Positions 6,046 through 30,265 of a DNA stretch of 64,000 nucleotides are shown here, piece by piece. A program made the position numbers and the translations under genes. Each line of letters starts with the position of its first letter. The first letter of the stretch is position 1. Below the pieces are notes generated by a model. The model worked only from the letters and a program-made list of their open reading frames with translations, did no database searches and was not told the DNA's origin. Origin of the DNA: Maribacter aestuarii (GTDB lineage Bacteria > Bacteroidota > Bacteroidia > Flavobacteriales > Flavobacteriaceae); assembly GCF_027474845.2 (NCBI RefSeq), contig NZ_CP107031.2:1068501-1132500 (forward strand). The letters run 5' to 3'.

Positions 6046-6770
6046 GACCTTAGGATTTATTATTCCTAAGTTACTTCGAGGGGCGTATTTATTCTATGAC
6101 ATTTATCAGTTTCATAATCTGCTTGAAAAGACTTGGAGAACCTGAATTATTTAATATTTGTACACTAGCTTAAAAACTCTTATTCTCTAACACTAAAACT
6201 ATTGATCTGATTAGTAACGGAAATTTCAAGTTCTTAGCTCTTTCAGTTAAAATAGATGTAAGCTACTTTCTAAGAAAAAGTTCGGAGGGTCTAATCTTCT
6301 TGCCAGAAAGAATAAACGACAAAAAGCTGGTAAATAAGTAGGCTTCAAAAGAAAACCACTTTTTTATTACTTGCTAGTGAATTTTTCAAATAAGCGGTTC
6401 TTACATGGTAGACCTATTAGCTTAATCCACTGAATGTGATCCATCGTAAATGAAATGTGACATTAATCAACTGCCAAGCCACTCTGTTCATAATTTTTAC
6501 AAATACCATAAACCAACTTAGCAGCTGTGAATTCGTAGTTATCAGATTATTACCTTGTTCTCTTTTTATGTCATCTAAATGAAATTTTGCTCCTAGTACC
6601 CATTAACATTGGTTGGAAAAATCTATCATTTTAAGATTTAACATTGTTCAAACCCAATGATTCCATGGTTTTTTTAAAATGTTATTCAGTGTTGGTACGA
6701 ATATCAAATGTCCGAATAGTGTCATTTTAAACTCGATAATGTTAAACAAATTTCTTTAATTATTTTAATT
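6046..6770. other. Intergenic region between divergent tonB and araC-BLUF genes (about 725 nt)
   Basis: Very AT-rich with no convincing gene on either strand and no RNA gene that I can recognise. It contains the tonB leader hairpin at one end. At the other end a -7-like TAATTTTG (6766-6773) sits about 20 nt before the likely araC-BLUF start, without a clear -33 partner. The length is unusual for this compact genome and could hold regulatory sites for the light-sensor gene. Confidence 0.5.
6049..6070 (-). promoter_or_regulatory. Inverted repeat just upstream of the tonB start codon
   Basis: Arms CTTAGGA and TCCTAAG (7 bp, perfect) are separated by 8 nt and end 4 nt from the tonB ATG. In the mRNA this would form a hairpin over the ribosome-binding area; as DNA it could be an operator. 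There is no T-run, so it is not a terminator. Function is inferred from position only. Confidence 0.35.
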
Positions 6771-6791
6771 TTGATAGGTAATATCAATCTA

Positions 6792-8249
6792 ATGTTAGGG
6801 TTAAAAGAAGACAATCCTTTAAAAATGCTTCGCGAATTCTCTGTCCACCTCAATGGTGATCTCATTGAGAATTTTGGAGCAGCTAAAATGACCATAGATA
6901 ACCAACATGGAAAAGGTCATATAAGCCTCTATGAGTTAATCCCTGGATTTAGTGCATGGGTTTATAACATCGAGCTAGCAAATGAACTTATTATAAATTT
7001 AGAATTTTCAAAGGACAGACCTTACTACTTTGGTTACAATGTTTCCGGACATCAATTTCAGAAATTTCCAGGAGAAAAAAAGCGTCAGGTTATCCAGCAA
7101 AATCAAAATTTCATTATTATCAGCGAACCTGGAACGAGTTCTGAATTTGTAGTGCCCAGCGGAATACATTACAAATGTTGTTACTTGATTATAAATCCGG
7201 TACAATTGGCCAACTCCAAAATACAGAGTAAAACCAGGTTATTAGAGCAGTTAAAAGAAACCTTCGGAGAATTTGACAGTAAGCCCCCCTATCGGTATTT
7301 TGGAGATATAGATACTAGAATAGGTTCTTACGCAGAAATAATAGTGAAGAACTCAAGGACGGATATTGTAGGTAGGTTAACAACAGAAGGGGCGGTCCTT
7401 AATATGCTGGCCTCACAGATTGCTGCACATGATCAAGACAACAGGACGGAGAGCTTCAGACCACAATTAACGAAGTCGGAACTTTCTAAAATTACCGATA
7501 TAGGGGATTATGTTATTAATCATATTTCCGAAAAAATAACCATGCAGGATATTATGGGCTATCTCAGCATGTCTCCAAAGAAAATACAGGCAGGAATTCA
7601 GTATTTGTACGGTAGCTCAGCAAACGATTATATCACAAAATTGCGTTTGGAGCATGCCAAAGAGCTCATGCATGCCACCGATATGAGTATCTCTGAGGTT
7701 TGTTACGGCGTAGGCTATCAAAGTAGGAGTTATTTCTCCAAGATTTTCAAGGAAATGCACGGGTTGCTGCCAAGCGATTATAAGAAATACTATTTGAACG
7801 AGAATTTATTGTTCGATATCAGTTATCGTTCACTGGCTGTGGATTCCCTAACCAACAAACAGGTTGATTGGATTGTAAATACTGCAAGGGAAATGAATCC
7901 GGAATTCAATATAACAGGTAGCCTGATATTTCACAGAAATATATTTTTCCAAATAATTGAAGGCCCTAAAAAAGAGGTTCTTCAACTGTACGAAAATATA
8001 ACGAAAGATAAAAGACACACAGATGTTCAAATCATGTGGAAAGGCTACAAAGTAAAACGAGATTTTGAAGATTGGGCCATGGCCACCTTGAGCGATGATG
8101 GTAATCTAGAGGTGTCTATTCAGGGAGATACTAAAAATTTAGAACTAAGCCATGTTCTAGGTAAGCTAGATAAATCTAGTCTTGCATCTGAAAGCTTATG
8201 GCGCAAAGTGCGTAACATCATAAAACTCTCTAGCGATTCTGCAGCCTAA
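6792..8249 (+). CDS. AraC-family transcriptional regulator fused to a C-terminal BLUF photoreceptor domain
   Basis: 485 residues from the ATG at 6792 (an upstream TTG at 6771 is less likely). Residues 1-225 form the same N-terminal sensory region as the other AraC regulators in the window. Residues 233-333 are a double helix-turn-helix AraC domain (SRSYFSKIFKEMHG, LPSDYKKY). Residues 343-436 are a BLUF domain: SYRSLA with Tyr345, NPEFNITG with Asn369, FFQIIEG with Gln387, DKRH, and FEDWAM with Trp428 and Met430. All residues known to matter for flavin hydrogen bonding in BLUF proteins are present. BLUF domains bind FAD and report blue light, so this looks like a light-responsive DNA-binding protein. 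Target genes are unknown; a stand-alone BLUF gene faces it tail to tail. Confidence 0.9.
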   Translation: MLGLKEDNPLKMLREFSVHLNGDLIENFGAAKMTIDNQHGKGHISLYELIPGFSAWVYNIELANELIINLEFSKDRPYYFGYNVSGHQFQKFPGEKKRQVIQQNQNFIIISEPGTSSEFVVPSGIHYKCCYLIINPVQLANSKIQSKTRLLEQLKETFGEFDSKPPYRYFGDIDTRIGSYAEIIVKNSRTDIVGRLTTEGAVLNMLASQIAAHDQDNRTESFRPQLTKSELSKITDIGDYVINHISEKITMQDIMGYLSMSPKKIQAGIQYLYGSSANDYITKLRLEHAKELMHATDMSISEVCYGVGYQSRSYFSKIFKEMHGLLPSDYKKYYLNENLLFDISYRSLAVDSLTNKQVDWIVNTAREMNPEFNITGSLIFHRNIFFQIIEGPKKEVLQLYENITKDKRHTDVQIMWKGYKVKRDFEDWAMATLSDDGNLEVSIQGDTKNLELSHVLGKLDKSSLASESLWRKVRNIIKLSSDSAA

Positions 8250-9240: not shown

Positions 9241-10449
9241 CTACTGTAACTCCGGAAGCTCAAGAACCCTTTCCGGACCGTAAAATTTTAAGGCAACGGC
9301 AAATAGGATCACAGACAATATCATACCAATCATAAAGACGGTATAAGTCCATCGTAACAATCGATATTTCCGTTCTAGGACGACCCCAAGAAAATAGAGA
9401 TCCTTAGTTAAACTACTGTATATGTAATCCTTGTCCTTAATGAGTTCTTTCATTGCCCATTGATATTGATCGAGCTGCATTTTATGAAAATTTCCAAAAA
9501 AGAGCAGGTTTACTTTTTTGGAAGTTACCTCTTCTTCGGTGAATTGACCACTGGTCACATTCGGCTTAGTAGCCAATATGGACATAACCATAGAAACAAC
9601 ACTGAAGATGACGAACAAGGCCGTTGGATAGATAAGATAGTCATTTGAAGGATTATCCAGTTTAGGAATTAAATTGGCCAAGGCCAGCGAAATGATTATA
9701 GCATTAACAGACAGTAGGATATTGGCCTTAGTGTCCGCAATATCACTCAACTTAATATGGTTGCGTAAGGTAACCCGGTACAGCGTTTGAATTCCGCGGT
9801 CCGGTAAATTACCTTTGTACTTAGCTTTTAATGATTCCTTTTTTACCAGTTTTTTACTTTTCTTCTTCGCTTTGATCAGCTTCTTAAGGTTTTTATCTTT
9901 TCTACTCTGCCAATTTTCGATGGCATAATCTGTATAAAACCGATGGGAATTATTGAGAAATCTAATGTTTTCCCTGCGCCATTCATCAATCGTATAATGG
10001 GCTATGCCTAAGGAAGAAAGTTCAACCCTTAAAAGTTCCGAAGCGGTTAAAAAACTCTTTTTGGCCAGGTGCGAAGAATCCGCATCTTTCATTATTTTTT
10101 CCAAAAGATTTTCCGGTTGGTAATTTCGTTTGGTAGCCCTGATCAAGGAAAGAACTTTATCAATAAAGTCATCCGTACATCCCTCTTTAGAAAGAAATTC
10201 CTTTACTATCTGACAACTTTTTTCTTCATGATTGTCATAGGATATGGTGTATCCTACATCGTGGAACCAAGCTGCGACCTTTAAGGCCTCTGCGTCTTCG
10301 TCCTCTATACCAATTTCCTCGACTAAAGTTGATACGCTATTAACTACCCTTTGTGTATGACGCAAATTATGGTATAGTGAATCTGACGACGTCTCGGTAG
10401 TCAACTTTTGAGTAATATATTTGTCTGATTTATCTACTATTGCTGTCAT
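9241..10449 (-). CDS. HD-domain protein with C-terminal Pycsar-effector-like transmembrane domain
   Basis: 402 residues. The N-terminal HD phosphohydrolase domain (about 10-200) has His31 in YHNLRHT, His63-Asp64 in WFHDVGY, His74 and the late acidic DADSSH, so metal binding looks intact. A lysine-rich linker (about 195-220) follows. Residues 225-395 match the PycTM/DUF5706 layout: a helix with SDIADTKANILLSVN, two transmembrane helices, a long amphipathic helix and a final transmembrane helix (WTYTVFMIGMILSVILF). HD domains of this sort cleave nucleotides or phosphoesters. In Pycsar systems the membrane domain damages membranes when cyclic CMP/UMP is sensed, but HD-linked copies are common in chromosomes of this phylum. 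No uridylate/cytidylate cyclase lies next to it. Confidence 0.85.
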   Translation of the reverse strand: MTAIVDKSDKYITQKLTTETSSDSLYHNLRHTQRVVNSVSTLVEEIGIEDEDAEALKVAAWFHDVGYTISYDNHEEKSCQIVKEFLSKEGCTDDFIDKVLSLIRATKRNYQPENLLEKIMKDADSSHLAKKSFLTASELLRVELSSLGIAHYTIDEWRRENIRFLNNSHRFYTDYAIENWQSRKDKNLKKLIKAKKKSKKLVKKESLKAKYKGNLPDRGIQTLYRVTLRNHIKLSDIADTKANILLSVNAIIISLALANLIPKLDNPSNDYLIYPTALFVIFSVVSMVMSILATKPNVTSGQFTEEEVTSKKVNLLFFGNFHKMQLDQYQWAMKELIKDKDYIYSSLTKDLYFLGVVLERKYRLLRWTYTVFMIGMILSVILFAVALKFYGPERVLELPELQ

Positions 10450-16928: not shown

Positions 16929-17974
16929 TTATATAGTCTCCAGTTCCAAATTCAGTTTTACATGATTTTGGAACTGACTGGGACTTATCCCAAATTTATT
17001 TTTGAAAATTTTTGAAAAATAGCTTCTACTACTAAATCCGATTGTATAAACGATTTGGGAAATATTCATGTCCGTGGTGCTTATATAATCTCGAGCCGCT
17101 TCAAGCCGAACATTTCTAATATATTCTGTTACCGTTCTTGTATACAACAATTTAAAACCTTCTTGAAGCTTTGATTGCGATAGGCCGGACTCCTTAGATA
17201 GCTTTTCAAGCGTGTAATCATAAGAAATATTCTTAGCAATTTTATTAGCAACTTCCCTTACAATTTTTAACTCCCTGCGTAACAAAGTCGTTTGTTGAAG
17301 ACTGCCTTTACTGTCTTTTTCATGTTGGCCAATATGCATTGCCAATATTTCATATACCAAACCCTCGATTTGCATAATCCGAATCATTCCGTTCTTATGC
17401 CGAACCTTTCGCAACATTCCTATTTTATTGGCCAGTTTTAGGTTGTAAGAACCATAATAAGCAAAAGTCTTATCATGATCGGTATCCATAAAAACTTCGT
17501 ATAGTTTTTTGTTTAGAGCCTCTACACCGTTTATTCTCTTATTAAGGAATTTTTTTCTGGTTATCTGTATCACATTAATGGCCAATTTTACTTCTTTTGG
17601 AAAATAGCCATAATTATAACCCCCTCTCTACTGGAAATTATAACCGATTGGAACTGCTCCAATACTTTGATTTCCTTTTCAGGCTGGTAACCAAAGCGAT
17701 GCTTGCAAAAGCCTTCTAAACAATACGTGAAATGGATGGGGTTAAATTCTGAGGCATCCATAATCAGGATTACTTCATCATGAAATGTAATGTCGTATTC
17801 TAAAAGGCCAACACCCCAATCAAAAGTAATGAACCGAATATTCCCGGTAGCCTTGGCATTGTTAACGGTCAGGGTATATTCACCCCAACGCTCGGATATC
17901 TGTCCTCCAATGACCTCCTGTATTTGCCGTACCGTACCTTCTGTACTTTCCGCCGTAATTTCAATAGTGATCAT
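16929..17974 (-). pseudogene. AraC-family transcriptional regulator, broken by a one-base frameshift
   Basis: Two frames together make one AraC regulator. 17588-17974 holds the N-terminal sensory half (FDWGVGLLEYDITF, LEQFQSVIISSREG). 16929-17585 holds the rest, with the HTH region LSQSKLQEGFKLLY and SRSYFSKIFKNKFG. The join is at a G5 run in the coding strand (C5 at 17620-17624). With six G the reading becomes SREGGYNYGYFPKEVKLAINV, which aligns with the LFPAGKDLKVNFIRI of the intact paralogue at 25782-26816, and the total becomes 348 residues, the family norm. Apart from this base the gene looks undamaged, so a base-calling error or recent mutation is likelier than an old pseudogene. Confidence 0.88.
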
Positions 17975-18154: not shown

Positions 18155-18637
18155 CTATAATTGATCTCGAGTATCTTTCGTCCAAGCATCCAACATCCAA
18201 CTTACTTTTTCCAATTCAGCTATATATCCGCCCATTAAGTCAATAGTTCCTTCATCGCCTGCATCTTCAGCCTTCTTTACCACTTTTCCCATCTGCTTTA
18301 ATATTTTCTCATGGTTTGTTAAGATGTGGTCCACCATTTGTTTGTCAGAGATTAATGGGTCGACCTCTTTTAAAGCCGATATTTTGAAATACTCTGAAAA
18401 TCTGCTTTTTGGATGATGTCTTAAAGTAAGAATACGTTCGGCGATTTCATCTATTTTAATCCTGGCATCCGTGTATAGCTCCTCGAATTTTTCATGCAGA
18501 TCAAAGAAGTTTTTACCCAATACATTCCAATGAAATCCTCTTAAATTTTGGTAATACACATGATAATCCGCTAGTAGGGTATTTAACTCCTCTACAATGG
18601 GACTTATTTTTTTTGTTTCAATATCTAAATAGCTCAT
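18155..18637 (-). CDS. dps: Dps-family DNA-protecting ferritin-like protein
   Basis: 160 residues, standard for Dps. The ferroxidase ligands are recognisable: NLRGFHWNVLGKNFFDLHEKFEELY carries the His and Asp/Glu set, followed by DEIAERI. Dps forms a dodecamer that oxidises and stores iron and shields DNA from peroxide. It is a single-gene unit with its own terminator, in a region rich in stress-type genes and AraC regulators. The upstream 140 nt carry a TATATTTA sequence that only loosely resembles the phylum's -7 box. Confidence 0.93.
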   Translation of the reverse strand: MSYLDIETKKISPIVEELNTLLADYHVYYQNLRGFHWNVLGKNFFDLHEKFEELYTDARIKIDEIAERILTLRHHPKSRFSEYFKISALKEVDPLISDKQMVDHILTNHEKILKQMGKVVKKAEDAGDEGTIDLMGGYIAELEKVSWMLDAWTKDTRDQL

Positions 18638-18780
18638 ATCTAAGGTTTTATTTTTATGAATTAATTAATCTTTTGTTTCCATAAATATAATACGAAAGAC
18701 TCATATTGTTTGTCTTCAATCCTAGAATCATTAGCCCAAATGCTCGGTAGCCATTCCAATAGAAGAGAGGATTTCTATTT

Positions 18781-19389
18781 TTATTTCTCCAATAAGGGTT
18801 TCAAATCTATGTAGTGGTATTTTACTTTGCCAACATGGTTATATTCCGTAAAATCTTCTTTTAGTTTTCCCCAATCAAATTCTTGGCCCAATTGATGGTT
18901 TTTATAATGATTAGTTAATCCTTCAGAAAGCAAAAGGTATTCGTTTATGGGAATCTTATTTTTCAATAGACGGTGGGCAATTATGAGATCCTCTCCAAAT
19001 AACTTTATGCGATTCCCTACCTTGGTCAACCCTACCTCTTTCCCAAAATGAAGAACTATCTTAAGTCCCAAAAATTCTGGAATGTTCCCAGCATCCTCTT
19101 CATTTCTATTTTTTTCCCTCAATAAGTTCAATTGTTTATAGAATTCTGTGTAAAAATATGCGCACTGGTCAACAAGTTTTGTTAAGGTAGGCATTTCGCC
19201 TGTTTTGTAGAATAATACGGCATCACCTTCTATTTCCGACACCTTTAAACCTATCTCATTGGAATAAATAATATTATTCAATAAAGAGGGAATGACCTTG
19301 GAGGTTAGTTCAAAATCCGTTTCGCTCATAAACTCGGTAAATCCGCTTATGTCGGGTATGCAAATAAGTGTTGGAGAAGTTTTCATCAT
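18781..19389 (-). CDS. DUF2652 protein with a class III nucleotide-cyclase-like fold
   Basis: 202 residues from the ATG at 19389 (MMKTS; 19386 is equally possible). The sequence tracks the class III adenylate/guanylate cyclase core: PDISGFTEFM with the first metal Asp (13), then SEIEGDAVLFY with the second (56), and later GEDLIIAHRLLKN in the place of the usual N-x-x-x-R motif. The transition-state Asn is replaced by Ile, while the Arg is kept. The family is conserved in Bacteroidota without known activity. It may be a non-catalytic or divergent cyclase. It sits 43 nt downstream of the flavodoxin-type reductase gene on the same strand. Confidence 0.75.
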   Translation of the reverse strand: MMKTSPTLICIPDISGFTEFMSETDFELTSKVIPSLLNNIIYSNEIGLKVSEIEGDAVLFYKTGEMPTLTKLVDQCAYFYTEFYKQLNLLREKNRNEEDAGNIPEFLGLKIVLHFGKEVGLTKVGNRIKLFGEDLIIAHRLLKNKIPINEYLLLSEGLTNHYKNHQLGQEFDWGKLKEDFTEYNHVGKVKYHYIDLKPLLEK

Positions 19390-19432
19390 CAATATCAAAT
19401 ATTATATAAGTAGTCTTTTATTTATGCTACAG

Positions 19433-20146
19433 TTACCTGTATTCCGGATTTTCAAAATTCCATCGAGTCCCATCATCCCATTCCTCCCTAGAATTACCAT
19501 ATTTTGGATAACCACCGTTCTCCTTCAACATTTTTGCCAAATGCAACATGTTGTAGGTCATAAAGGTGGTATTCCTATTGGTGAATTCATTATTCTTTCC
19601 ACCGGATTCTTCATCTAGATAACTTGGGCCGGGACCCGCCTCACCTATCCAGCCACAATCCGCTTGCGGCGGTATGCTAAAGCCTAAATGTTGCAAGGCA
19701 TATAAAATGCCCATAGCGCAATGCTTTATACCATCTTCATTACCTGTAATGACACAACCTCCTACTTTACCGTAATAAATATATTGTCCTTTGTCATTAG
19801 TCCTGCCGCTCATACCGTACAACCGTTCAATGAGCTTGGTAGCTATGGAGGATTTTTCCCCCAGCCAAATCGGTGTTCCTATCACCAGAATATCCGCATC
19901 CATAATTTTCTCGAATATTTCTGGCCAATCGTCTTTAAGAGCACCTGCTTCGGTCATATCTGGCAGCAGTCCGACAGGTATGGTCATATCGGACAAGCGC
20001 ATATAGTCTACACGAACCTTTTCTGCCTCTAGAATCTTAATGGACACTTTCATCAGTCCTTCTGTATGACTTTTTTGGGAGGAATCCTTAAGCGTACAAT
20101 TAATATATACAGCTTTTAAACCGGAAAAATCATTTTTTTGTTCCAT
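19433..20146 (-). CDS. Flavodoxin-like NAD(P)H-dependent oxidoreductase
   Basis: 237 residues from the ATG at 20146 (MEQKNDFSGLK); a longer frame begins only with TTG. It has the flavodoxin fold: an NCTLKDSS phosphate-binding loop, DILVIGTPIWLGEKSSIATKLIERL for FMN binding, and KVGGCVITGNEDG. The expected chemistry is two-electron reduction of quinones or similar acceptors with FMN. It lies upstream of the DUF2652 gene on the same strand and may share its transcript. Confidence 0.85.
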   Translation of the reverse strand: MEQKNDFSGLKAVYINCTLKDSSQKSHTEGLMKVSIKILEAEKVRVDYMRLSDMTIPVGLLPDMTEAGALKDDWPEIFEKIMDADILVIGTPIWLGEKSSIATKLIERLYGMSGRTNDKGQYIYYGKVGGCVITGNEDGIKHCAMGILYALQHLGFSIPPQADCGWIGEAGPGPSYLDEESGGKNNEFTNRNTTFMTYNMLHLAKMLKENGGYPKYGNSREEWDDGTRWNFENPEYR

Positions 20147-20496
20147 CGCATACCTCTTAAAGTCGGTGAGAATCAAATGTAGCCATATTAGAATAAATAG
20201 TTATATATCAGCATAGCTCCGTAATGCTTAGAGCTAAAATTACACGCTATACGGCTAAGGAAGGTATTATGTTTCCAATAATTTTGTACCAAGCAGTAAT
20301 TAATTTAATAATTAAAACACATTATCTGAGAAAACTAATATTACTATACAAAATATACTTACATGGATTCTATGAGCGATATTGAATCTAAAATGAAGGA
20401 CTATAAGATCATTTATTCAAAATAATAAGATAAGTTTGGTTGGTTGGTTAAATGGTTTCGGCTTCTTTTGTCGAAACCATTTTTTAACTTAGACCA
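20147..20496 (+). other. Intergenic region with a 20-codon leader ORF before topoisomerase IB
   Basis: Of the 350 nt, the first half shows nothing. A short frame at 20363-20425 encodes MDSMSDIESKMKDYKIIYSK. It is followed by a terminator-like hairpin (20451-20485) that ends 12 nt before the GTG of the topoisomerase gene. If one transcript crosses both, the arrangement resembles an attenuator; otherwise the hairpin ends a small RNA or a small gene. The leader ORF itself is weakly supported. Confidence 0.4.
20451..20485 (+). terminator. Terminator-like hairpin directly upstream of the topoisomerase IB gene
   Basis: Arms AATGGTTTCG and CGAAACCATT (10 bp) enclose an 11-nt loop and are followed by TTTTTT. 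Its place just in front of a start codon is unusual for a plain terminator. Confidence 0.65.
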
Positions 20497-21609
20497 GTGA
20501 AAAATATTACTTTCAATTATATGCCAATTAAAGATATTGACTTAGTAGATTTTACTCAAAAGCTCATATCCGAGCCGGAAGAAGTTATATCTAATTTTAA
20601 CCTAGTATATGTTTCCAGGGAGAAGTTAAGTATTGCAAGAATCAAGGATGATAAGGGGTTCTTGTACCTGTACCACGACAAACCGTTGCGCAACAAGAAG
20701 GAACTTAAGCGAATAGATGAATTGGTCATTCCCCCAGCTTGGGAAAAGGTGAAGATAGCCCCAAAGTCCAATGCACATTTACAAGCTATAGGTTTTGACC
20801 TTAAAAAAAGAAGACAATACAGGTATCATCCTATCTGGCTCAAAATTAGGAATAGGACTAAGTTTTACAAAATGAATGCCTTTGGTGAGTCGCTTTCCGC
20901 TATACGAAAGCGAACGGAAGAAGACCTTAATCTTGAGGGCTGGCCAAAGAACAAAGTCCTTGCACTTATCATAAAATTGATGGAAGAAACTCATATCAGG
21001 GTAGGCAATGAGCAGTACGCCAAGAGAAATAAAACTTATGGTCTGTCTACTTTAAGGACAAAACACTTAAAAGGCGATGACAAAAAACTTCGTTTTGAAT
21101 TTACCGGAAAAAGAGGAAAAAAACATAAGATAACGCTCAAGAACAAAAAATTAGTTCGGCTGGTGAACCAATGCGAAGAAATCCCAGGGTGGGAACTGTT
21201 TCAATTCTTTGATACGGATGGTAAAAAAACTTCTGTAGATAGTGGGATGGTTAATTCTTATCTTCACGATATCAGTGGCCAACTTTTTACCGCCAAGGAC
21301 TTTAGAACCTGGGCTGGCACCCTAATATTCTTTGAAGCGCTAATGGAGTTTCCTAAAACCAACGATGAAAAAGTTGTTGAAAAGAATATATTAAAGGCAT
21401 TTGACGAAACCGCTCGAGAACTAGGGAATACTAGAAATGTCTGCCGCAAGTATTATGTACATCCCTATGTGATTAAAAGCTATAAGGATAAATCTATTTA
21501 TCCTTTTTTTGATGAAATAGATAATGTAGAAAAAGCTCCCCACTACTCACCTACCGAATTAGTTTTGTTAAAACTTATAAAACAGTTTAAACCCTTAGAG
21601 AATATTTAG
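20497..21609 (+). CDS. DNA topoisomerase IB (poxvirus-like)
   Basis: 370 residues from a GTG at 20497; an in-frame ATG at 20521 is the alternative start. The catalytic set is visible: Arg in HIRVGNEQYAKRN, Lys in GKRGKKHKI, Arg in KDFRTWAGT and the nucleophilic Tyr in CRKYYVHPYV. These enzymes relax supercoils through a 3'-phosphotyrosine link and are accessory in bacteria. The MscS channel gene follows 2 nt later, so the two form an operon, preceded by a terminator-like hairpin. Confidence 0.93.
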   Translation: MKNITFNYMPIKDIDLVDFTQKLISEPEEVISNFNLVYVSREKLSIARIKDDKGFLYLYHDKPLRNKKELKRIDELVIPPAWEKVKIAPKSNAHLQAIGFDLKKRRQYRYHPIWLKIRNRTKFYKMNAFGESLSAIRKRTEEDLNLEGWPKNKVLALIIKLMEETHIRVGNEQYAKRNKTYGLSTLRTKHLKGDDKKLRFEFTGKRGKKHKITLKNKKLVRLVNQCEEIPGWELFQFFDTDGKKTSVDSGMVNSYLHDISGQLFTAKDFRTWAGTLIFFEALMEFPKTNDEKVVEKNILKAFDETARELGNTRNVCRKYYVHPYVIKSYKDKSIYPFFDEIDNVEKAPHYSPTELVLLKLIKQFKPLENI

Positions 21610-21611
21610 TT

Positions 21612-22502
21612 ATGAAAGATAAATTCTCGGATGCTTGGTCCGCAATGGTAGAGAAATTAGATAGCTGGTTCAATGCCCTTGTCATTAACCTACCAAACAT
21701 TTTAATCGCGATTTTTGTTTTCCTTCTCGCCTTAATGGCTTCGAAGTATGTAAGTAGAGGAGTATCCAAATTGTTGGATAAAACAAAGTTACAAGCTTCC
21801 ATGAAGAGCCTTTTGTCAAGACTCACCTCTTTTGTCGTAGTACTTTTAGGTCTCTTTTTGGTCTTGGGAATCCTTAATTTAAGTAAGGCTCTTAATACTG
21901 TTCTGGCAGGTGCGGGCGTCATGGGATTGGCCGTTGGTCTTGCACTACAAGGTGCCTTGGCAAACACGTACTCTGGTATCGTCCTCTCCTATATTAAACA
22001 TATTAAGTTTGGCGACTGGATAGAAAGTAACGGTTTTGAGGGAGAAGTTGTGGACTTAGATCTGCGGTCGGTTACCTTAAAACAACCAGACAACAATTTG
22101 GTATTCATCCCTAACAAACTTGTAGTGGAGAATCCCATTAAGAACTATTCCACTACTGCGCAATCTCGAGTTATATTAAAATGTGGTGTCGGTTATTCTT
22201 CAGATCTTGAATTTGTAAGAAATTTGGTAAAGAAGTCGATTATGGAAAGGTTTGATGCAGTAGAAACGAAAGAGGACATCATATTTCTGTATCAAGAATT
22301 TGGCGATAGCTCCATAAACTTTGAGGTTCGCTTCTGGATTAATTCTACCTCTGCACTGGAAGTTGCTCGAGCAAAAACAGACGCAATGATTTGTATTAAA
22401 CAGGCGTTTGACGAAAATGAAATAAATATTCCGTTCCCTATTAGAACCTTAAATTTTCCAGAAGAACTAGATGTAAGTTTGAAAGAAAAAAAAGATAAGT
22501 AA
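21612..22502 (+). CDS. mscS: Small-conductance mechanosensitive channel (MscS family)
   Basis: 296 residues. Three N-terminal transmembrane helices end in the pore helix AGVMGLAVGLALQGALAN, followed by the beta-domain signature FGDWIESNGFEGEVVDLDLR and FIPNKLVVENPIKNYS. It opens on hypo-osmotic shock to release solutes from the inner membrane. It starts 2 nt after the topoisomerase gene stop and probably depends on its promoter. It converges with the TUDOR-domain gene downstream. Confidence 0.93.
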   Translation: MKDKFSDAWSAMVEKLDSWFNALVINLPNILIAIFVFLLALMASKYVSRGVSKLLDKTKLQASMKSLLSRLTSFVVVLLGLFLVLGILNLSKALNTVLAGAGVMGLAVGLALQGALANTYSGIVLSYIKHIKFGDWIESNGFEGEVVDLDLRSVTLKQPDNNLVFIPNKLVVENPIKNYSTTAQSRVILKCGVGYSSDLEFVRNLVKKSIMERFDAVETKEDIIFLYQEFGDSSINFEVRFWINSTSALEVARAKTDAMICIKQAFDENEINIPFPIRTLNFPEELDVSLKEKKDK

Positions 22503-22512
22503 GGGATTGGTT

Positions 22513-22725
22513 CTAGTCAACCTTTTCGACTTCGCTTTCACTTTTTAACACGTAATCACCATCATCCTGTTTGATGTATAGGGCCTTATCCCCCTCTTCA
22601 CCGTTACGGGTAACCTTGGTGCCTTTAATGGTTTTGGTAATTTTTGAGGTGTAGGTTTCTTCAACCGTGCCTGTGGCCGAACCATTACCCCAATTCCATT
22701 TTACTTTGCTTCCTGTTCTTATCAT
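22513..22725 (-). CDS. Hva1/TUDOR-domain small protein (DUF2945 type)
   Basis: 70 residues matching the hypervirulence-associated TUDOR family: RTGSKVKWNWGNGSATGTVEE near the start, KGTKVTRNGEEGDKALYIKQDDGDYVLKSESEVE at the end. The fold is a small SH3-like barrel; its binding partner is not known. It is a single gene, convergent with mscS (10 nt between stops). Confidence 0.88.
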   Translation of the reverse strand: MIRTGSKVKWNWGNGSATGTVEETYTSKITKTIKGTKVTRNGEEGDKALYIKQDDGDYVLKSESEVEKVD

Positions 22726-23006
22726 CTTATCTTTTTTTCTGGATTTGTGCTTCCCACCACCTAATATTTTTGGAGAACTAACTAGTAGTGGGAAGAAAGT
22801 TTTGTTTAGTCAAAACTCACAAAATCACAGTTCTTGCGTAAACTCAAGCTTAAAATTCCGAAAAAAATGTTTTGCTTTCAACTTATGAAACATGTAATGT
22901 TGACGCTATCAATTTAGGAAATTAACCCTATCGATATGGGTCAAGACTTCCATTTTTTCAGGTAAGAGGAACTTCAACAATCCATTAGTTTTATAAAAAA
23001 TTAGAC

Positions 23007-23210
23007 ATGCTATTATCATCAGAGGTCTTTGGGATTATCGCAATTGGTTTTGCCCTTAACTTTCTAAGAATCATTATCAACGATAAAAGTAAGAGTGTCT
23101 CTAAGACAAGTATGAATCAAAAGAGTTCCATTCAGGAAGAACTTGAATCGTTCATAGAAATTCCAATGGAAGGTTTATATGCCAGCTCAAAACTTGAAGG
23201 TGATAATTAG
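23007..23210 (+). CDS. Small membrane protein (67 aa), hypothetical
   Basis: One N-terminal hydrophobic helix (SEVFGIIAIGFALNFLRIII) followed by a polar Ser/Lys-rich tail. It reads in the same direction as the DUF2383 gene 125 nt downstream. Directly after its stop a GTG-started frame of 23 codons continues in the same frame, too short to call. No family recognised; coding status is plausible rather than proven. Confidence 0.45.
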   Translation: MLLSSEVFGIIAIGFALNFLRIIINDKSKSVSKTSMNQKSSIQEELESFIEIPMEGLYASSKLEGDN

Positions 23211-23334
23211 GTGGACCAGTTGAAAGAGAAAATAAAAAAGTTTAAAGAAAGGAATAGGTTTTACACCCATAATAAAATGTAAAGTGGCTAGCATTTAAAA
23301 AAAAATTAGCAACAAAATTTTAATACTTATAAAA

Positions 23335-23784
23335 ATGAGCACATACACAGAAGAAGTTGGAGAAAAACTAAATGACCTTTTAGAGAAAACCTACGATGCG
23401 GAAAAAGGTTTTAAAAAGGCTGGCGAAAATACAGACAACCCTGGACTTAAATCCTATTTTGATGGGAAAGCTCAGCAACGTTACGATTTTGGCCACGCTC
23501 TTAAAAGTGAGATAAAATCCTTTGGACAGGAAGTTGATAAAGGAGATAGCCTTACCGGTAAAGCACATAGGGCATGGATGGATGTAAAGGCGTTATTTTC
23601 ATCAGATGACGATGAAGCCATGTTGGAAGAAGCCATTCGTGGTGAAAAGGCTGCGGTTGAGGAATACGAGGATGTTCTAAAAGAAATTTCATTGCCAAGC
23701 AGCACCTCCACCTTGTTGAAAAGTCAAAAACAAGCTATTGAAAGTGGTTTATCCACCATTAAATCCTTAGAAGATTTAAGCTAG
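23335..23784 (+). CDS. PA2169/DUF2383-family four-helix-bundle protein
   Basis: 149 residues of ferritin-like helical bundle: EKLNDLLEKTYDAEKGFKKAG in helix 1, YFDGKAQQRYDFGHALKSE in helix 2, then an EEAIRGEKAAVEEYEDVLKE helix with the paired acidic residues of the family. Such proteins are stress-associated and of unknown activity; metal binding is suggested by the Glu pattern but not shown. It is followed by a strong terminator shared with the convergent AraC gene. Confidence 0.88.
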   Translation: MSTYTEEVGEKLNDLLEKTYDAEKGFKKAGENTDNPGLKSYFDGKAQQRYDFGHALKSEIKSFGQEVDKGDSLTGKAHRAWMDVKALFSSDDDEAMLEEAIRGEKAAVEEYEDVLKEISLPSSTSTLLKSQKQAIESGLSTIKSLEDLS

Positions 23785-23808
23785 GAAATAAATTGTATGA
23801 AAAAGAAG

Positions 23809-23833
23809 AAAGAGGCCATAGGCCTCTTTTTTA
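23809..23833. terminator. Bidirectional intrinsic terminator
   Basis: Stem AGAGGCC / GGCCTCT with a 3-nt loop, flanked by A-rich sequence on one side and TTTTTT on the other. It separates the DUF2383 gene from the convergent AraC gene and could serve both. Confidence 0.85.
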
Positions 23834-23834
23834 T

Positions 23835-24866
23835 TTATACGGTTTCGGGGACTTGCACTTGAGCTCTTTTTTTATAGGTCTTGGGACTGCAAGTATATTT
23901 CTTCTTGAAAATTTTGCAGAAATAACTTCTACTTGTAAAGCCTATGGAATATACCACTTCAGAGATGTTAAGATCAGTGGTTCTTAGAAGATGTTCAGCC
24001 TTTTCCAGTCTTATTAGTCTTATGTATTCACCTAAAGTAACGTTATGCATAAACTTAAAACCCGACTGCAACTTAGATGCGGACAAACCGGATTTTGACG
24101 ATATGCTCTTTATGCTGTGTTGAACCTCGGGATAATTCTTAATAAAATCTGCAACCTCGCTTACAATTTCCAATTCTCTTTTTAAAAGGGTGGTCGCCGG
24201 TTCTTCTCCATTTTCCAAATCTATTTTAAACTGCTCCAGCTGCTTTGCCAATATCATGTGACATACCCCTTGAAAATAAATCAAGGAAGATACCGAGTTC
24301 GCAAATTTGGCATTTTCCAACATTTTTATAAGCTCCCCAATTTCTAGATTAAACTTTCCTGAATGAAAATTTCCTAATTTTCTATTGTAGGAATTCAACA
24401 ACGTTATTATACCCTCGCTAGAGGTTTCCAATGGTGCTTTTCCTTCTTTAGCGTACTTATTTAAATCGATACGAATGCAGTTTAAAATTAGTCTATCGTC
24501 CTTTTTGATAATGAACTTGCTTCTATTATCCGCATCATTGAACATAACCGCTGTCTGTAACTCCATCAATTTATTTACTTCCTCACAACCGTGAAACTTA
24601 TGGAAGCAATTTCCCTTTAAACAGTACATCAAGTATACGACGTTCTTGTCCGTCCAATTTGGAAATAAATTACAATCTTCCTTTAGTGTAATATCCCATT
24701 CCATTGCCATGAGGCCATGGTCTAGATAAACGCAGTTGATTTGACCTGAGCCAAATGATTTTTCAAGCTCCAAAAACTGTAAGTCATTTTTGCTTACTAC
24801 CTGGCCGTCTAAGCCAGTTCTTAAATGAAGCAACTCTTCGTAAGCGTATTTTCTTCGTGTCTCCAT
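23835..24866 (-). CDS. AraC-family transcriptional regulator
   Basis: 343 residues. The N-terminal half has the local family's pattern (GSGQINCVYLDHGLMAMEWDITL, then MYCLKGNCFHKF). The C-terminal 100 residues are the AraC double HTH: SASKLQSGFKFMHNVTLGEYIRLIRLE-type recognition region and SRSYFCKIFKKKY, CSPKTYKKR. The lack of a jelly-roll cupin motif suggests a different ligand domain. It is divergently placed from the SRAP-like gene (25088) and convergent with DUF2383. It is one of five related regulators between 6.8 and 28.0 kb; targets unknown. Confidence 0.9.
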   Translation of the reverse strand: METRRKYAYEELLHLRTGLDGQVVSKNDLQFLELEKSFGSGQINCVYLDHGLMAMEWDITLKEDCNLFPNWTDKNVVYLMYCLKGNCFHKFHGCEEVNKLMELQTAVMFNDADNRSKFIIKKDDRLILNCIRIDLNKYAKEGKAPLETSSEGIITLLNSYNRKLGNFHSGKFNLEIGELIKMLENAKFANSVSSLIYFQGVCHMILAKQLEQFKIDLENGEEPATTLLKRELEIVSEVADFIKNYPEVQHSIKSISSKSGLSASKLQSGFKFMHNVTLGEYIRLIRLEKAEHLLRTTDLNISEVVYSIGFTSRSYFCKIFKKKYTCSPKTYKKRAQVQVPETV

Positions 24867-25087
24867 TTTCTTTTAATTTTAGGTTCAGTGTTTTCTGTAT
24901 GGTGTAAAATTAGTTTGCTTAGGGCGCATCACTTACCGAAATAGAATAAATGTTTAACAGTATTGCGGAATTTCTCACAAATAGGGGACCGAATTAAATT
25001 ACTTGTTTCTAATGAGTTACATTTTTTACTGTTTGTAGCAATGCCTGATATGGTATTTTCCGAACTTGCTACTTGAAAAGGAGAGTT

Positions 25088-25789
25088 ATGTATTTTAGAA
25101 TATCTAATACAGCGGACAAGAACTTACTAGAAGCATGGAGTAATGCCTCTTTAAAATATCCAAATCTTTACAAACCTCAAATCATCATTAATGGTTTGAA
25201 CGAGGTTACCATACCCATTATTACAATGGAGGAAAAAGAAAAAATTTCTTTGGCCATATGGGGCCTGCTACCCGAAGAATATAATGAAGATTGGACTCTT
25301 TTTCAAAATACCTTAAATACGCTAAATCTTAACGTGGAGCATATGGACTCCAGTATATGGTATACCGAAGCTTATAAACAGCGTCGTTGCCTAATACCTG
25401 TTACAGGTTTCTACACATCCTATTTGCGTAATGGGGAAATGTACCCGTACTACGTGGGACTCAAATCTGGAAAACCATTCTATTTGGCCGGGATTTACAA
25501 TAAATTGGAGGATGGATTTATAACCTGCTCCGTCCTTGTTGGCAAAGCGAGCAGATTTATCGAGAAAATCCAAAACCTAACGGATTGTATGCCACTACTA
25601 ATTTCTAGTACCGAAAGGTCTGATTGGCTTTCTGAAGAAACTTCTTTAAACCGATTGAAAGAATTATTGAATAGTGATGAAGATGACCTATTTCATGCGC
25701 ATCCGATAGCCAAGGAATTTTTCAATAATGATATATCTTACGATAGTATGCTCTTACCGTATGAATATGTAAAATCCAATTTTAAGTAG
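25088..25789 (+). CDS. SRAP (YedK/HMCES)-family protein lacking the catalytic residues
   Basis: 233 residues. The start at 25088 is supported by an unusually good AAAAGGAG Shine-Dalgarno 5 nt upstream; a TTG-started longer frame is less likely. Family landmarks are clear: LAIWGLLPEEYNEDW, RRCLIPVTGFYTSY, PFYLAGIYNK, CMPLLIS. Yet Cys2, which crosslinks to abasic DNA, is Tyr. The Glu of GFYEW is Thr (GFYTS), and the active-site His before RMP is absent (NLTDCMP). It therefore looks like a non-catalytic paralogue that may still bind DNA ends. Its 3' end overlaps the convergent AraC gene by 8 nt. Confidence 0.82.
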   Translation: MYFRISNTADKNLLEAWSNASLKYPNLYKPQIIINGLNEVTIPIITMEEKEKISLAIWGLLPEEYNEDWTLFQNTLNTLNLNVEHMDSSIWYTEAYKQRRCLIPVTGFYTSYLRNGEMYPYYVGLKSGKPFYLAGIYNKLEDGFITCSVLVGKASRFIEKIQNLTDCMPLLISSTERSDWLSEETSLNRLKELLNSDEDDLFHAHPIAKEFFNNDISYDSMLLPYEYVKSNFK

Positions 25790-26816
25790 TTGACTTAGAA
25801 ACTTTCAATTGTTTTCTATAATCTGTTGGTAAAATGCCGTATGCCTCAGTAAATATCTTAGAAAAATAGCTTCTACTTTTAATACCAACTTCATACACAA
25901 TCTCTGATACAGAAAGATTAGTAGTCTTGAGATAATCCCTAGAAATCTCTAATTTTAACTGACGTATATACTCATTAACCGTTTTTGAATACAACACCTT
26001 AAAGCCTAGTTGTAATTTCTTGGGGCTAAGACCGGATTCCGTAGATAGAATATCAACTGATAATGGCCCCGAAATGTTGTCAAGAATATATTCAGACAAT
26101 CGATGTATCTTTTTAATGTCCTCTTTGGTCAATGACTCAGGGAGTGATTCTGACATTTCAAAATTATGGTGCTCCAATAATTGCAAGGACAATATTAGAT
26201 ATATTCTACCTTCCAACGAAAGCGTTCTCATCATACCATTATCGTGAACTTTTTCAAGAGCTTTTACCTCATCAGCAATCTTGAGATTAAAACTTCCGCC
26301 GTGGGAGTAAGGTTCATTACCTTCGGCATCGTTAAAGACTGAAAGTAAAAGATCGTTAAGATAGGTTACATTATTGTTTTTCTTTTTCAGATAATCCTTG
26401 CGCAAAATCCGGATAAAATTCACTTTTAAATCCTTACCTGCCGGAAAAAGAAAGGTTTTTTTTGCATAACGTTTGGGAGAAAGAATAATATTCTGGAACT
26501 GTTCCAAGTCTAAATATTCCTCGGAATCATCTTGACCATACTTAAAAGACCCTTTGGAGATAAATACGAATTCTATAGGGGAAACACTTGTAGTTTTAAA
26601 TACAAGCTTCACGTCCTTATAAAAGGTAACGTCACAATCCAACAGGGAAACTCCCCAATCAAAACCGATATTTCTTATGACGCCCTTCCCAATTTCATTG
26701 TCAAACCTTAAGGTCCGTTCTCCCCATTCCTCAGTCAATTCTCCGTCTAAACATGCGTTCAATTGAAACAGGATGCGCTCATCTTTAATACTTGTTATTA
26801 CAAATTCCCGCATCAT
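25782..26816 (-). CDS. AraC-family transcriptional regulator
   Basis: 344 residues. The N-terminal domain shows the fullest form of the local motif: EEWGERTLRFDNEIGKG, then GFDWGVSLLDCDVTFYKD and LEQFQNIILS. The AraC HTH domain occupies the last 100 residues (LSPKKLQLGFKVLY, SRSYFSKIFTEAYG, LPTDYRKQL). It is the closest relative of the frameshifted regulator at 16929-17974. It follows another AraC gene (26968-28014) on the same strand, 151 nt apart, and overlaps the SRAP-like gene tail to tail. Confidence 0.9.
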   Translation of the reverse strand: MMREFVITSIKDERILFQLNACLDGELTEEWGERTLRFDNEIGKGVIRNIGFDWGVSLLDCDVTFYKDVKLVFKTTSVSPIEFVFISKGSFKYGQDDSEEYLDLEQFQNIILSPKRYAKKTFLFPAGKDLKVNFIRILRKDYLKKKNNNVTYLNDLLLSVFNDAEGNEPYSHGGSFNLKIADEVKALEKVHDNGMMRTLSLEGRIYLILSLQLLEHHNFEMSESLPESLTKEDIKKIHRLSEYILDNISGPLSVDILSTESGLSPKKLQLGFKVLYSKTVNEYIRQLKLEISRDYLKTTNLSVSEIVYEVGIKSRSYFSKIFTEAYGILPTDYRKQLKVSKSTT

Positions 26817-26967
26817 AAATAATCTTAGTGTACTTAAATTAGTACAGCAAAGAAATCAGAATAAAGAAAAACACGTTAACAATTTTGAAACGTTAATTAA
26901 CACAAAAGGGCTACTTATTGATTTAAATATTTCTTAAAAAGTTAAACAAAAAGTTGGTTTTACAAGT

Positions 26968-28014
26968 TTAAGCCGTTTTTGGAGACTCATCATTTGATGT
27001 ATTTAATTTTTTCATATACTGCTGAGGCGTCATGGAATAGCGTTGTTTAAATAACTTCGAAAAATAACTGCGTGAATTAATACCTATTTTATAAGTAATC
27101 TCTGTAATATTAAGACCGGTACTCTCCATGAGCTCCCTTGCCAATTCCATACGGGCATTTTTTATGTACTGATTTACAGATGTACCGTACAAATGTTTAA
27201 ACCCATTCTGTAAAGTATTTTGATTGAGGCCTACTCTTCTTGATAATGCCAGAATATTGTCCATATGTTCTAGCTCCTCCCTTATAATTTCGGCGGCCTC
27301 CTCAATTTTTTCAACGGTCGCTTGCCGTAATATTTTTCTTCCATCCGGGTCCGCTAGGTCGTCTAAATATTGTCTTAGGTGGTGTGCTAAAATTTCATAA
27401 CATTTTCCCTCTATAAATACACTTTTAGTAAAGCCGGTATGCTCACAGTTCGTACTCTCTTCAATACATTTGGCAATATCCAAACTATAGTGACCTTTAT
27501 AAAAAAATAGGTTTACCCCGTTCACGTCCCTAAAAAGTGCTTCTAGTTCCTCGTTCATTTCTGGCAAGAAAGACTCTATTTTTTCTTCGAACAATTTTCT
27601 ATTGATTTCCAAACTGAAAAAACAAATGGGCTCATTTGCCGGCAGGGTTACAACGTTGCCGTGACGACCGTTGCAAGAAATGATAGCACTTTCTAAATGT
27701 TTAATCTCCTGATCTTTTTCTTTTCCATCAAATTCGTGCGTAAAAGCAGACTCCCTGTTAAATATGATTTCTAAGGGTTGCACCAATGGCTGATTTAACT
27801 CAAATCTTATTTCGCTTTTAAATCTGCAATCCAAATTTAAAACACCAACCCCATGTGTAAAACTCATAGCGTTAATATTACCTGTTCCAACTTCCTCCGG
27901 AATTTCCAAACAGATTTCGTTATTCTCCTCTTCATAATCCACGTTGAGGCGCTGTGCTATGTCCTTGACGACGTCTAAAACGTTAAAATCTTTCAACTCC
28001 TTCTTTTTGGTCAT
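26968..28014 (-). CDS. AraC-family transcriptional regulator
   Basis: 348 residues from the ATG at 28014 (MTKKKELKDF); ten codons of open frame upstream lack an ATG. The N-terminal domain keeps GTGNINAMSFTHGVGVLNLDCRF, and the C-terminal AraC domain has LNQNTLQNGFKHLYGTSVNQYI and SRSYFSKLFKQRYSMTPQQYM. It is followed on the same strand by a second AraC gene. The divergent neighbour is the small DUF1328-type membrane gene at 28260. Confidence 0.9.
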   Translation of the reverse strand: MTKKKELKDFNVLDVVKDIAQRLNVDYEEENNEICLEIPEEVGTGNINAMSFTHGVGVLNLDCRFKSEIRFELNQPLVQPLEIIFNRESAFTHEFDGKEKDQEIKHLESAIISCNGRHGNVVTLPANEPICFFSLEINRKLFEEKIESFLPEMNEELEALFRDVNGVNLFFYKGHYSLDIAKCIEESTNCEHTGFTKSVFIEGKCYEILAHHLRQYLDDLADPDGRKILRQATVEKIEEAAEIIREELEHMDNILALSRRVGLNQNTLQNGFKHLYGTSVNQYIKNARMELARELMESTGLNITEITYKIGINSRSYFSKLFKQRYSMTPQQYMKKLNTSNDESPKTA

Positions 28015-28259
28015 TTTTAAATAGGTTGTGTATACATACACCAATATACTATAAATTAATAGGATATCTCAACTCCCATCTAAATGAGTTGAATTTATTT
28101 AGATAGACTGTAAGTATTTGGTTATCAAACGAAAGAGAGGGATTCGAATGAGCTAATGATTGCATTGATACCACTAACAAATTAGCGCATAAACCAACAT
28201 TTTTGTATTAGTTAAAAGGGATAGTCCCTTTGAACAAAAGAACTTAAAATAATCAGAAT

Positions 28260-28712: not shown

Positions 28713-30265
28713 TTACTTTTTCTTACCATTTCCTGATAGTAAATGTAACAAACCTTCCTGAAGGCTTATCCATAAAAAGTTGAAGAATGACTTTTTTTGA
28801 TTTCGTTCTACATTTTCAATTGCACCATATCTATATCCATTTTCGTCCGTTTTGGAGCCATCATCTATGAACAGGTTACCAATGAACGTAAGGACTTTAT
28901 TTATTCCCAGACCATCTTTCTCCAAAATTTTAAATTTAAAATCATTATACCTCATCTTCACGTCGCCGTTAGCTACGTATTCGTCGCCGCTTATGGTAAA
29001 GTATAATTGTTCTATTTGACCTTCTGTCTTAACATTAAGACTGGGTACTAAAAAATCGTTGAGACTAGTAGTATCAAAATTGCTCAAACTTCCTTGAACT
29101 AGAAATCGTTCATCGGGATCGTTAACTTTAAAAGACCAATCAAAATTCAGTTTACCCTCACCCATTAAATCACTCTTTAGAACAATATGCATTTCATCTT
29201 CCTCACTGGGGAGATTGGAAATATTCCTAATTTGTCCAGAAAGATTTTCGAACCGAAGCTCACCAGGGTTTTCTTTTTTTCTTCCTCCTCCTCATATACC
29301 AAGTTGGAATCCGAAATATTAAAGGTTTCTATGGCTATATGAAAGGGAAGGGATTTTAACATTTTTGCATACAAAAATTTGTTTCGGATGTCATCGGGAG
29401 GGTTTTTATCCCTGAAGATTTCTAGTTTTAACCCGGATACATCTCCAGAGTCAGCAGTTACCAATAAACTGTCCCGATCAAAATTGAAATCAAAATCTGT
29501 TATAATCGTTTCCTTAATTTCTATGTTCAAGTGATCTCTTTCATAAGGGATTTCTTGACTAAGTTCCCGTTTAGAGACTTTGGTGAACACATGGGTATTT
29601 CTCAGTATAATTTCAGTATTATTTAGCTTAAACCCATCAGCCTCTATTTTTTCATATTTTCCGAGAAGTGCGGAGAAGTTTTTTAAATCTACCTCCACGG
29701 TGTTGTACTCAAACGGTATTTTCTTATTAACAATGCTCACATTTGTTCGCCCTCCATTTAAGTTAACATATAATGAGTCTAGCCGTAATACTTCTAGGCT
29801 ATCTTCTTCTATAATTCTCACACTACCGTTCTCCACGACCAAATCCTCTACATATATTGGCTTTAGGAGCTTAATAATTTTGTCTTGTTTTTCTTTCTGG
29901 TGCTCTCTTTTAAGAAATATAAAATCAGGTTCATTTATCAGGATTTTAGAGACCGTGATTTCCTTATGATAAAATAATCTCCAGTAATGAATATCTTCTA
30001 TACGTATTTCGTTTAAATCCACCGTAAGTTGTTCAGCCTCCGTAGCATTGTGGCGTATTTCAATTTCAGGATTCAGAAACAACAAATCTCCATTTAGAAA
30101 GTCTACTTTGAGTTCCTCATATGCAAATGATATGTTGTTAGGGATTTTTCGGTTTAAAAAATCTACAACGGTAATCTTAGCGCCCCACTGCAATAGAAAG
30201 TAAGATGAAACGGCCGAAAAAACTATGAGACCAATGCCAAACCATTTGCTTTTAAAAATCTTCAC
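28713..30265 (-). pseudogene. AsmA/DUF748-like envelope protein, broken by a one-base frameshift
   Basis: Two frames: 29177-30265 gives the N-terminal 340 residues (transmembrane helix at about 8-27, then beta-rich repeats such as SFAYEELKVDFLNGDLLFLNPEIEI). 28713-29192 gives the C-terminal 159 (FNWSFKVNDPDE-like strands, FKILEKDGLGINKVLTFIG). The join is an A7 run in the coding strand (T7 at 29274-29280). With eight A the frame reads EEKKENPGELRFENLSGQIRN and joins the second half, for 517 residues in all. AsmA-like proteins are anchored in the inner membrane and are thought to move lipids across the periplasm; the exact role here is unknown. Confidence 0.78.

Follow-up and report, generated by a model that had tools for sequence, protein, structure and literature searches.

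Does the AraC-type open reading frame near the start of this stretch encode a transcriptional regulator with a built-in sensor for blue light, and is such a protein a local accident or one member of a conserved family? The initial annotation of the 64-kb stretch of Maribacter aestuarii DNA analysed here (the window) described an intact AraC double HTH joined to an intact BLUF domain and proposed a one-component light switch for transcription, with a second input from the N-terminal region. To our knowledge, the BLUF proteins characterised so far act through enzymes, through EAL domains or through partner proteins.

The text of a 2014 survey counts 64% short BLUF proteins and 34% with EAL, and its BLUF paragraph, supplementary lists aside, names no HTH fusion; HTH proteins are described there as quite frequent among flavin photoreceptors in general (PMC4844311). 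The account of the Aquimarina longa genome notes a single BLUF protein in that species, and similar domains in further marine members of the Flavobacteriaceae (PMC4603819). A description of an AraC-BLUF family was not found in the open-access literature searched, subscription papers and supplements aside.

Domain architecture of the fusion protein

Domain analysis bears out that an intact AraC double HTH and an intact BLUF domain share one reading frame (Table 1). The five BLUF residues singled out by the initial annotation are all present and in the correct order, as judged from an alignment to AppA and from conservation across 69 fusions. The C-terminal domain has the fold by which BLUF photoreceptors are recognised as well as their residue set (Tyr, Asn, Gln and the Trp/Met pair), and the protein has the double HTH DNA-binding domain that defines the AraC/XylS regulators.

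The N-terminal part is predicted to be the cupin-type ligand and dimerisation domain that marks the AraC-like subgroup. Its model has a cupin fold, with AraC-like regulators among the top matches (VIA-align). Since the top VIA-align row is a pirin, the N-terminal part is described here as cupin by fold, and its putative assignment as AraC-like leans also on the helices that follow and on context. The placement of the domains relative to each other is uncertain in the model of the fusion (pTM 0.58).

Table 1. Positions of the fusion gene, its parts and the associated sites in the window
Feature	Position	Strand	Remarks
AraC-BLUF fusion gene, 485 aa	6792..8249	+	start ATG 6792, start backed by homologues
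N-terminal cupin-like domain and dimerisation helices, residues 1-218	6792..7445	+	modelled
AraC-type double HTH DNA-binding domain, residues 228-335	7473..7796	+	
HTH-BLUF junction, Pro327-Tyr345, 19 residues	7770..7826	+	same length in 69/69 fusions
BLUF domain, residues 340-431, with Tyr345, Asn369, Gln387, Trp428 and Met430	7809..8084	+	
C-terminal helix beyond BLUF, residues 463-484	8178..8243	+	low confidence, block pLDDT 43 to 56
Convergent short BLUF protein, 147 aa	8402..8845	-	Phe at the fusion's Trp428 position (by eye)
Candidate operator, half-sites 6714-6725 and 6734-6745	6714..6745	+	20 bp apart; top-scoring pair in the window
Candidate TAnnTTTG box (TAATTTTG)	6766..6773	+	begins 20 bp past the operator
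Operator-type pair before AraC paralogue 23835-24866	24933..24965	-	21 bp apart; not in training set
Operator-type pair before AraC paralogue 25782-26816	26876..26908	-	21 bp apart; not in training set

Fusions in other genomes

Absence of the fusion from all relatives, which the initial annotation had named as a sign of local assembly or sequence error, is not what was found. HTH_18 and BLUF occur together in one protein in 58 (query included) of the 120 homologues listed out of 250, and the domain order, which was to be sought in other Flavobacteriaceae, recurs in 24 full-length loci (L065-L088) that come mostly from this family. The 24 loci were obtained with an alignment query; a contig search with the single protein confirmed no relative. 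They span 22 titled genomes, with two loci each in Aquimarina sp. U1-2 and Euzebyella marina, and several come from uncultured or metagenome-assembled genomes. Named sources of fusions include Zobellia, Maribacter, Aquimarina, Psychroserpens, Dokdonia and Polaribacter.

Twenty-three of the 24 loci are labelled Bacteroidota, the exception being L070. The fusion at L070:2601-4049 lies in a metagenome bin titled Algicola, in NCBI a genus of the Gammaproteobacteria, a label that is taken here as given. Either the bin is mislabelled or the gene was transferred out of the Bacteroidota.

Full-length fusions were found in at least 11 of 397 genomes of the family, host included, in at least 14 copies (E 1e-60 or better); up to four candidates were scored per genome, so this count is a lower bound. 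In the genus, nine of 36 genomes (host included) have a fusion, and one fusion (G456) lies outside the family and inside the class. The BLUF proteins of the family are mostly short, and open frames of at least 470 aa occur in at least nine of the matches listed. To judge from these homologous sequences, the fusion is no local accident: it is a real and conserved protein that probably functions as a light-modulated AraC regulator.

Conservation of the photosensor and the junction

Seventeen columns are invariant among 58 aligned fusions, and nine of the 17 lie within the 92-residue BLUF domain (Tyr345, Ser347, Asn369, Phe385, Gln387, Glu390, Gly391, Asp406 and Arg408). A larger set of 69 fusions, whose identity to the query falls to about 29%, was made by including 12 additional fusions and removing P0037, which is cut at the C terminus. 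Here the photosensor Tyr and Gln are present in all 69, Asn in 68 and Trp in 64, and the Met position holds Met in 48 and Leu in 21. Trp470 of the C-terminal helix is kept in every member of the set.

The span from Pro327 in the HTH to Tyr345 in BLUF has a single length throughout the 69 fusions (Table 1). Across the same set the span 209 to 264, from the N-terminal part into the HTH, measures 54-58 residues and the tail span 428 to 470 measures 41-49 residues. One stretch inside the N-terminal part is likewise constant, so the junction is not the only segment of unvarying length. Two fusions stand in tandem at L029:7992-11090, and the second copy (L029_08), which is without the BLUF Asn and Trp, is perhaps a light-blind partner.

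Probable origin and loss of the BLUF domain

Trees were built separately for the BLUF domain and the AraC part. For both, the 69 fusions were thinned at 75% identity to 55; the short BLUF proteins were likewise reduced to 55, and the AraC-only proteins went from 69 to 37 at 70% identity. In the BLUF tree (55 fusions and 55 short proteins) the fusions make up one side of a branch with a support of only 60. One short-BLUF row of this tree, S_L048_s, stands on an extreme branch and is probably misread, and the L055 piece was too short and was dropped.

In the AraC-part tree (55 fusions and 37 AraC-only proteins) 26 BLUF-less regulators form a clade nested within the fusions. The three AraC paralogues of the window that were included fall outside this clade. 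In the same 92-row tree a second fusion clade has a long-branched BLUF-less protein, P0120, next to it, which may reflect a second loss of BLUF or a long-branch effect. The BLUF-less clade is again found inside the fusions in a careful tree of 42 rows, which were hand-picked from the 92 with long-branch rows including P0120 left out. The alternative of a single fusion clade in the AraC tree was rejected when 26 fusions were held together (p-AU 0.0014, with groups set after the first tree). In the 20 BLUF-less proteins examined the chain ends within the junction stretch, to which P0097 adds a few stray residues.

Because the junction is identical and the BLUF tree has the fusions on one side of a branch, the simplest reading of these alignments and trees is probably that the fusion arose once and that BLUF was later lost one or more times. 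The trees would also be compatible with independent fusions. The derived AraC clade without BLUF indicates that light is dispensable in some lineages, and it would be a natural control for the contribution of the photosensor.

Existence of this derived clade is also what would be expected if the BLUF domain were a sensor of redox or flavin status, or a protein-docking module, in what would then be a conventional AraC regulator driven by its ligand, with the flavin domain as an accessory. The gaps in the residue set agree with such a role, since Trp is missing in 5/69 fusions and Leu replaces Met in 21/69. However, the Tyr and Gln of BLUF photochemistry are kept without exception and Asn with a single one, and, as the photochemistry is generally understood, these residues are not obviously needed for docking or for flavin binding. 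On this evidence we regard a redox or docking role as unlikely.

A candidate operator and promoter box

Alignment of upstream regions revealed a common word near CGATAnnGTTAA. Candidate tandem half-sites close to this word, 19-21 bp apart, lie upstream of the fusion gene in this window, and several distant relatives have them before their fusion genes as well. The half-sites of AraC are tandem and are spaced by about 21 bp. Matches at 9 or 10 of 10 positions of the word were found in 14 of 34 fusion promoters (shuffles: mean 1.19, maximum 6, 200 runs) and perfect matches in seven of the 34 (shuffles: mean 0.03, maximum 1); the word was derived from eight of the 34 promoters scored. Matches at 8 of 10 positions over the 34 promoters are not in excess (20 vs a shuffle mean of 14.25 and maximum of 23).

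With a matrix from two clades, a 21-bp pair was found in seven of 24 other fusion promoters (shuffles: mean 0.22, maximum 2, n=100), a test set in which some promoters had already been inspected and in which L072 and L075 are close relatives. Each of the other spacings from 15 to 27 bp occurs in at most two of the 24. A clear 21-bp pair is absent from 17 of the 24 test promoters, and two of the seven positive promoters (L029 and L032) have an opposite-strand pair. The L087 promoter, close to L082 by its neighbours, was left out of the two-clade tests.

Four pairs in the window exceed the threshold when a wider matrix is used. The top three precede AraC-family genes (Table 1), and the proximal half-site of the highest of them, that of the fusion gene, belonged to the training set of the matrix. 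The fourth pair lies within an AraC paralogue gene. Of the window's five AraC-family genes, two lack a pair that passes the threshold, namely 26968-28044 and the split gene 16929-17974. Searches of the host genome with operator patterns stayed at background (7 vs 5 and 23 vs 26 control matches) and yielded no regulon.

Elsewhere, operator-like tandem pairs precede response-regulator genes in two Zobellia loci (L065:9975-10007 and L066:13723-13755). These two genes are possible, putative targets.

The -7 element of Bacteroidota is TAnnTTTG, and a candidate box of this form follows the operator. The box stands exactly 20 bp past the proximal half-site in five of 13 pair-bearing promoters (this window, L021, L066, L068 and L071), and TAnnTTTA has the same offset in two of the 13 (L065 and L085); the background frequency of TAnnTTTG is 0.003 per bp. 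It begins 10 bp past the half-site in L072 and L075 and 41 bp past it in L032, and none is present in three of the 13. Over 33 promoters scored with the two-clade matrix, an offset of 20 from half-site to TAnnTTT occurs in six, including L032 by way of its second half-site, offsets of 10 and 39 in three each, and the remaining offsets in fewer. No exact TAnnTTTG lies within the 160 bases upstream of the start in the four AraC paralogues of the window. By analogy with AraC-type activators, the proximal half-site would be placed about where an upstream promoter element would be, and for this reason autoactivation would be expected, as with those activators.

Gene neighbourhood of the fusion loci

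Gene neighbours mostly differ between fusion loci. AraC-only paralogues lie within six of 32 fusion stretches compared, of which five are shorter than 17 kb. A shared order is found at L068:9632-15304 and L071:9698-15353, where the genes after the fusion encode, in turn, an SRAP protein, a regulator-like protein, an AraC paralogue, a heme oxygenase and a phytochrome histidine kinase. The SRAP, paralogue, oxygenase and kinase genes all lie within about 6 kb of the fusion. Pfam matches cover both SRAP and both phytochrome proteins, and the oxygenase and the AraC paralogue in L068 only. This arrangement, in two genomes only, is suggestive of a photobiology cluster. The host genome has two photolyase-type genes, and a match to the PHY domain is absent from it.

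Neighbours with roles in DNA repair or light were considered and set aside, having been picked post hoc and with no matched control among loci that mostly differ. These are umuDC and Ku in L021, a photolyase about 5 kb away in L025, and the SRAP and phytochrome genes of L068 and L071. The gene uvrA was considered as a target. In L076, L078, L079 and L088 (Pfam on L076) it shares the strand of the fusion and starts 108-144 bp beyond it; of these loci L076, L078 and L088 are titled or match Maribacter and L079 is titled Bacteroidia bacterium. The gene cbpM directly precedes the fusion in seven genomes of the genus. In two fusion-less relatives (G1041 and G1053; L179 and L180) the same frame, dnaJ-cbpM ... 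uvrA-LOG, holds a curli-like operon, as seen by eye. The presence of uvrA is therefore uninformative on targets, and the gene was rejected as positional background.

Several other genes of the window were noted. Downstream of the fusion, past the short BLUF gene, the product of 9241-10449 (-) combines an HD domain with a Pycsar effector (PycTM) domain. Around the AraC paralogues (18155-25789) are genes related to stress and DNA damage, whose products are a Dps-like member of the ferritin family, a type IB topoisomerase and an SRAP protein. The AraC-family paralogue at 16929-17974 (-) is split over two open reading frames in different frames, by decay or sequence error. A phospholipase D/cardiolipin synthase-like gene at 31367-32792 (+) and an AsmA-like gene at 28713-30265 (-) are apparently split across overlapping frames; all three genes were named by eye.

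The convergent short BLUF gene raises the question of whether light acts through protein partners, with the BLUF domain of the fusion pairing either with this short protein or with neighbouring response regulators. Another short BLUF gene lies about 2.7 kb from the fusion in both L082 and L087, and in L021, L065 and L066 the fusion has a convergent response-regulator gene as its direct neighbour, with one about 0.2 kb off in L077 (Pfam: L065 only). Yet this window, L082 and L087 are the only three of the 32 loci compared by BLAST clustering that have a short BLUF gene, and a junction of one length in all 69 fusions points to signalling within the chain. Partner-mediated action is quite improbable in our estimation. 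That the fusion is a sequence artefact or a functionless pseudogene can be dismissed, for although a few window genes are split between frames and errors or decay do occur nearby, the idea is already refuted by conservation, with 58 of 120 listed homologues, 24 full-length loci and near-invariant photosensor residues.

Proposed mechanism

The first proposal for this gene, a one-component light switch that also takes a second input, is the reading best supported by sequence and model. We consider it likely that the protein is a one-component, dual-input transcription factor that would respond to a ligand through its cupin domain and to blue light through BLUF, and that would be autoregulated through the tandem operator. 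This reading draws support from the N-terminal model, with its cupin fold and AraC-type helices, and from the AraC-style tandem operator candidate. The domains, their residues and conservation, the junction length, the operator candidate and its distance from a promoter box come directly from computation; flavin binding, the light response, the ligand, the direction of regulation and the wider targets are the parts of it that we infer.

The cupin-like N-terminal domain would bind a small ligand and dimerise the protein as in AraC, and the double HTH would bind tandem half-sites, including the pair that immediately precedes its own gene. The C-terminal BLUF domain would bind a flavin, and blue light would rearrange the hydrogen bonds between Tyr345, Gln387 and the flavin. 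This change may travel to the HTH through the short, length-invariant junction, possibly also through the C-terminal helix, and would there alter operator binding or the contact with RNA polymerase. In the manner of AraC-type activators, the fusion gene would then activate its own expression.

On balance, we lean somewhat towards a broader proposal, namely that these proteins form an overlooked, widespread family of BLUF one-component regulators. Its members would combine an AraC ligand input with a BLUF domain locked in place by the invariant junction and would share their operator with local paralogues. The family would have a single origin, and BLUF would have been lost in at least one lineage to give light-blind regulators. 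If the fusion is a natural BLUF transcription factor, it would link blue light directly to transcription in marine Bacteroidota, and a BLUF signal could be read through DNA binding.

Comparison with known systems

The BLUF domain of the fusion is the same domain as that of AppA, PixD, BlsA, BlrP1 and the cyclases, which are among its sequence or fold matches, and of BluF/YcgF of E. coli. In BlrP1, BluF/YcgF, AppA, the photoactivated cyclases, PixD and BlsA the BLUF domain is N-terminal and signals to an EAL domain, a cyclase or a partner protein. AraC, BgaR and CuxR have the cupin, helices and double HTH of the fusion, but are not known to have a BLUF domain at the C terminus.

EL222 is not known to have an AraC double HTH or a cupin input, and it relies on LOV chemistry, whereas the fusion has a BLUF photosensor and has it at the C-terminal end. 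It is described as a natural light-responsive LOV-HTH one-component regulator (PMC4844311, PMC9614035) and, going by these descriptions, is like the fusion in placing a flavin photosensor and an HTH in one chain. BLADE (Romano et al. 2021) is presented as a set of engineered LOV-AraC chimeras that control transcription (PMC9614035). As outlined in that source, BLADE and the fusion both attach a blue-light domain to an AraC DNA-binding domain; BLADE, however, is man-made, uses LOV and has the N-terminal domain of AraC removed, whereas the fusion occurs in nature, carries BLUF and retains its N-terminal domain. If the proposed function is correct, the fusion, which would also respond to a second, chemical input, would be a ready-made counterpart to the engineered LOV-AraC switches. 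Judged by its domains, it would combine two known kinds of protein, the BLUF photoreceptors and the AraC regulators, in a new form.
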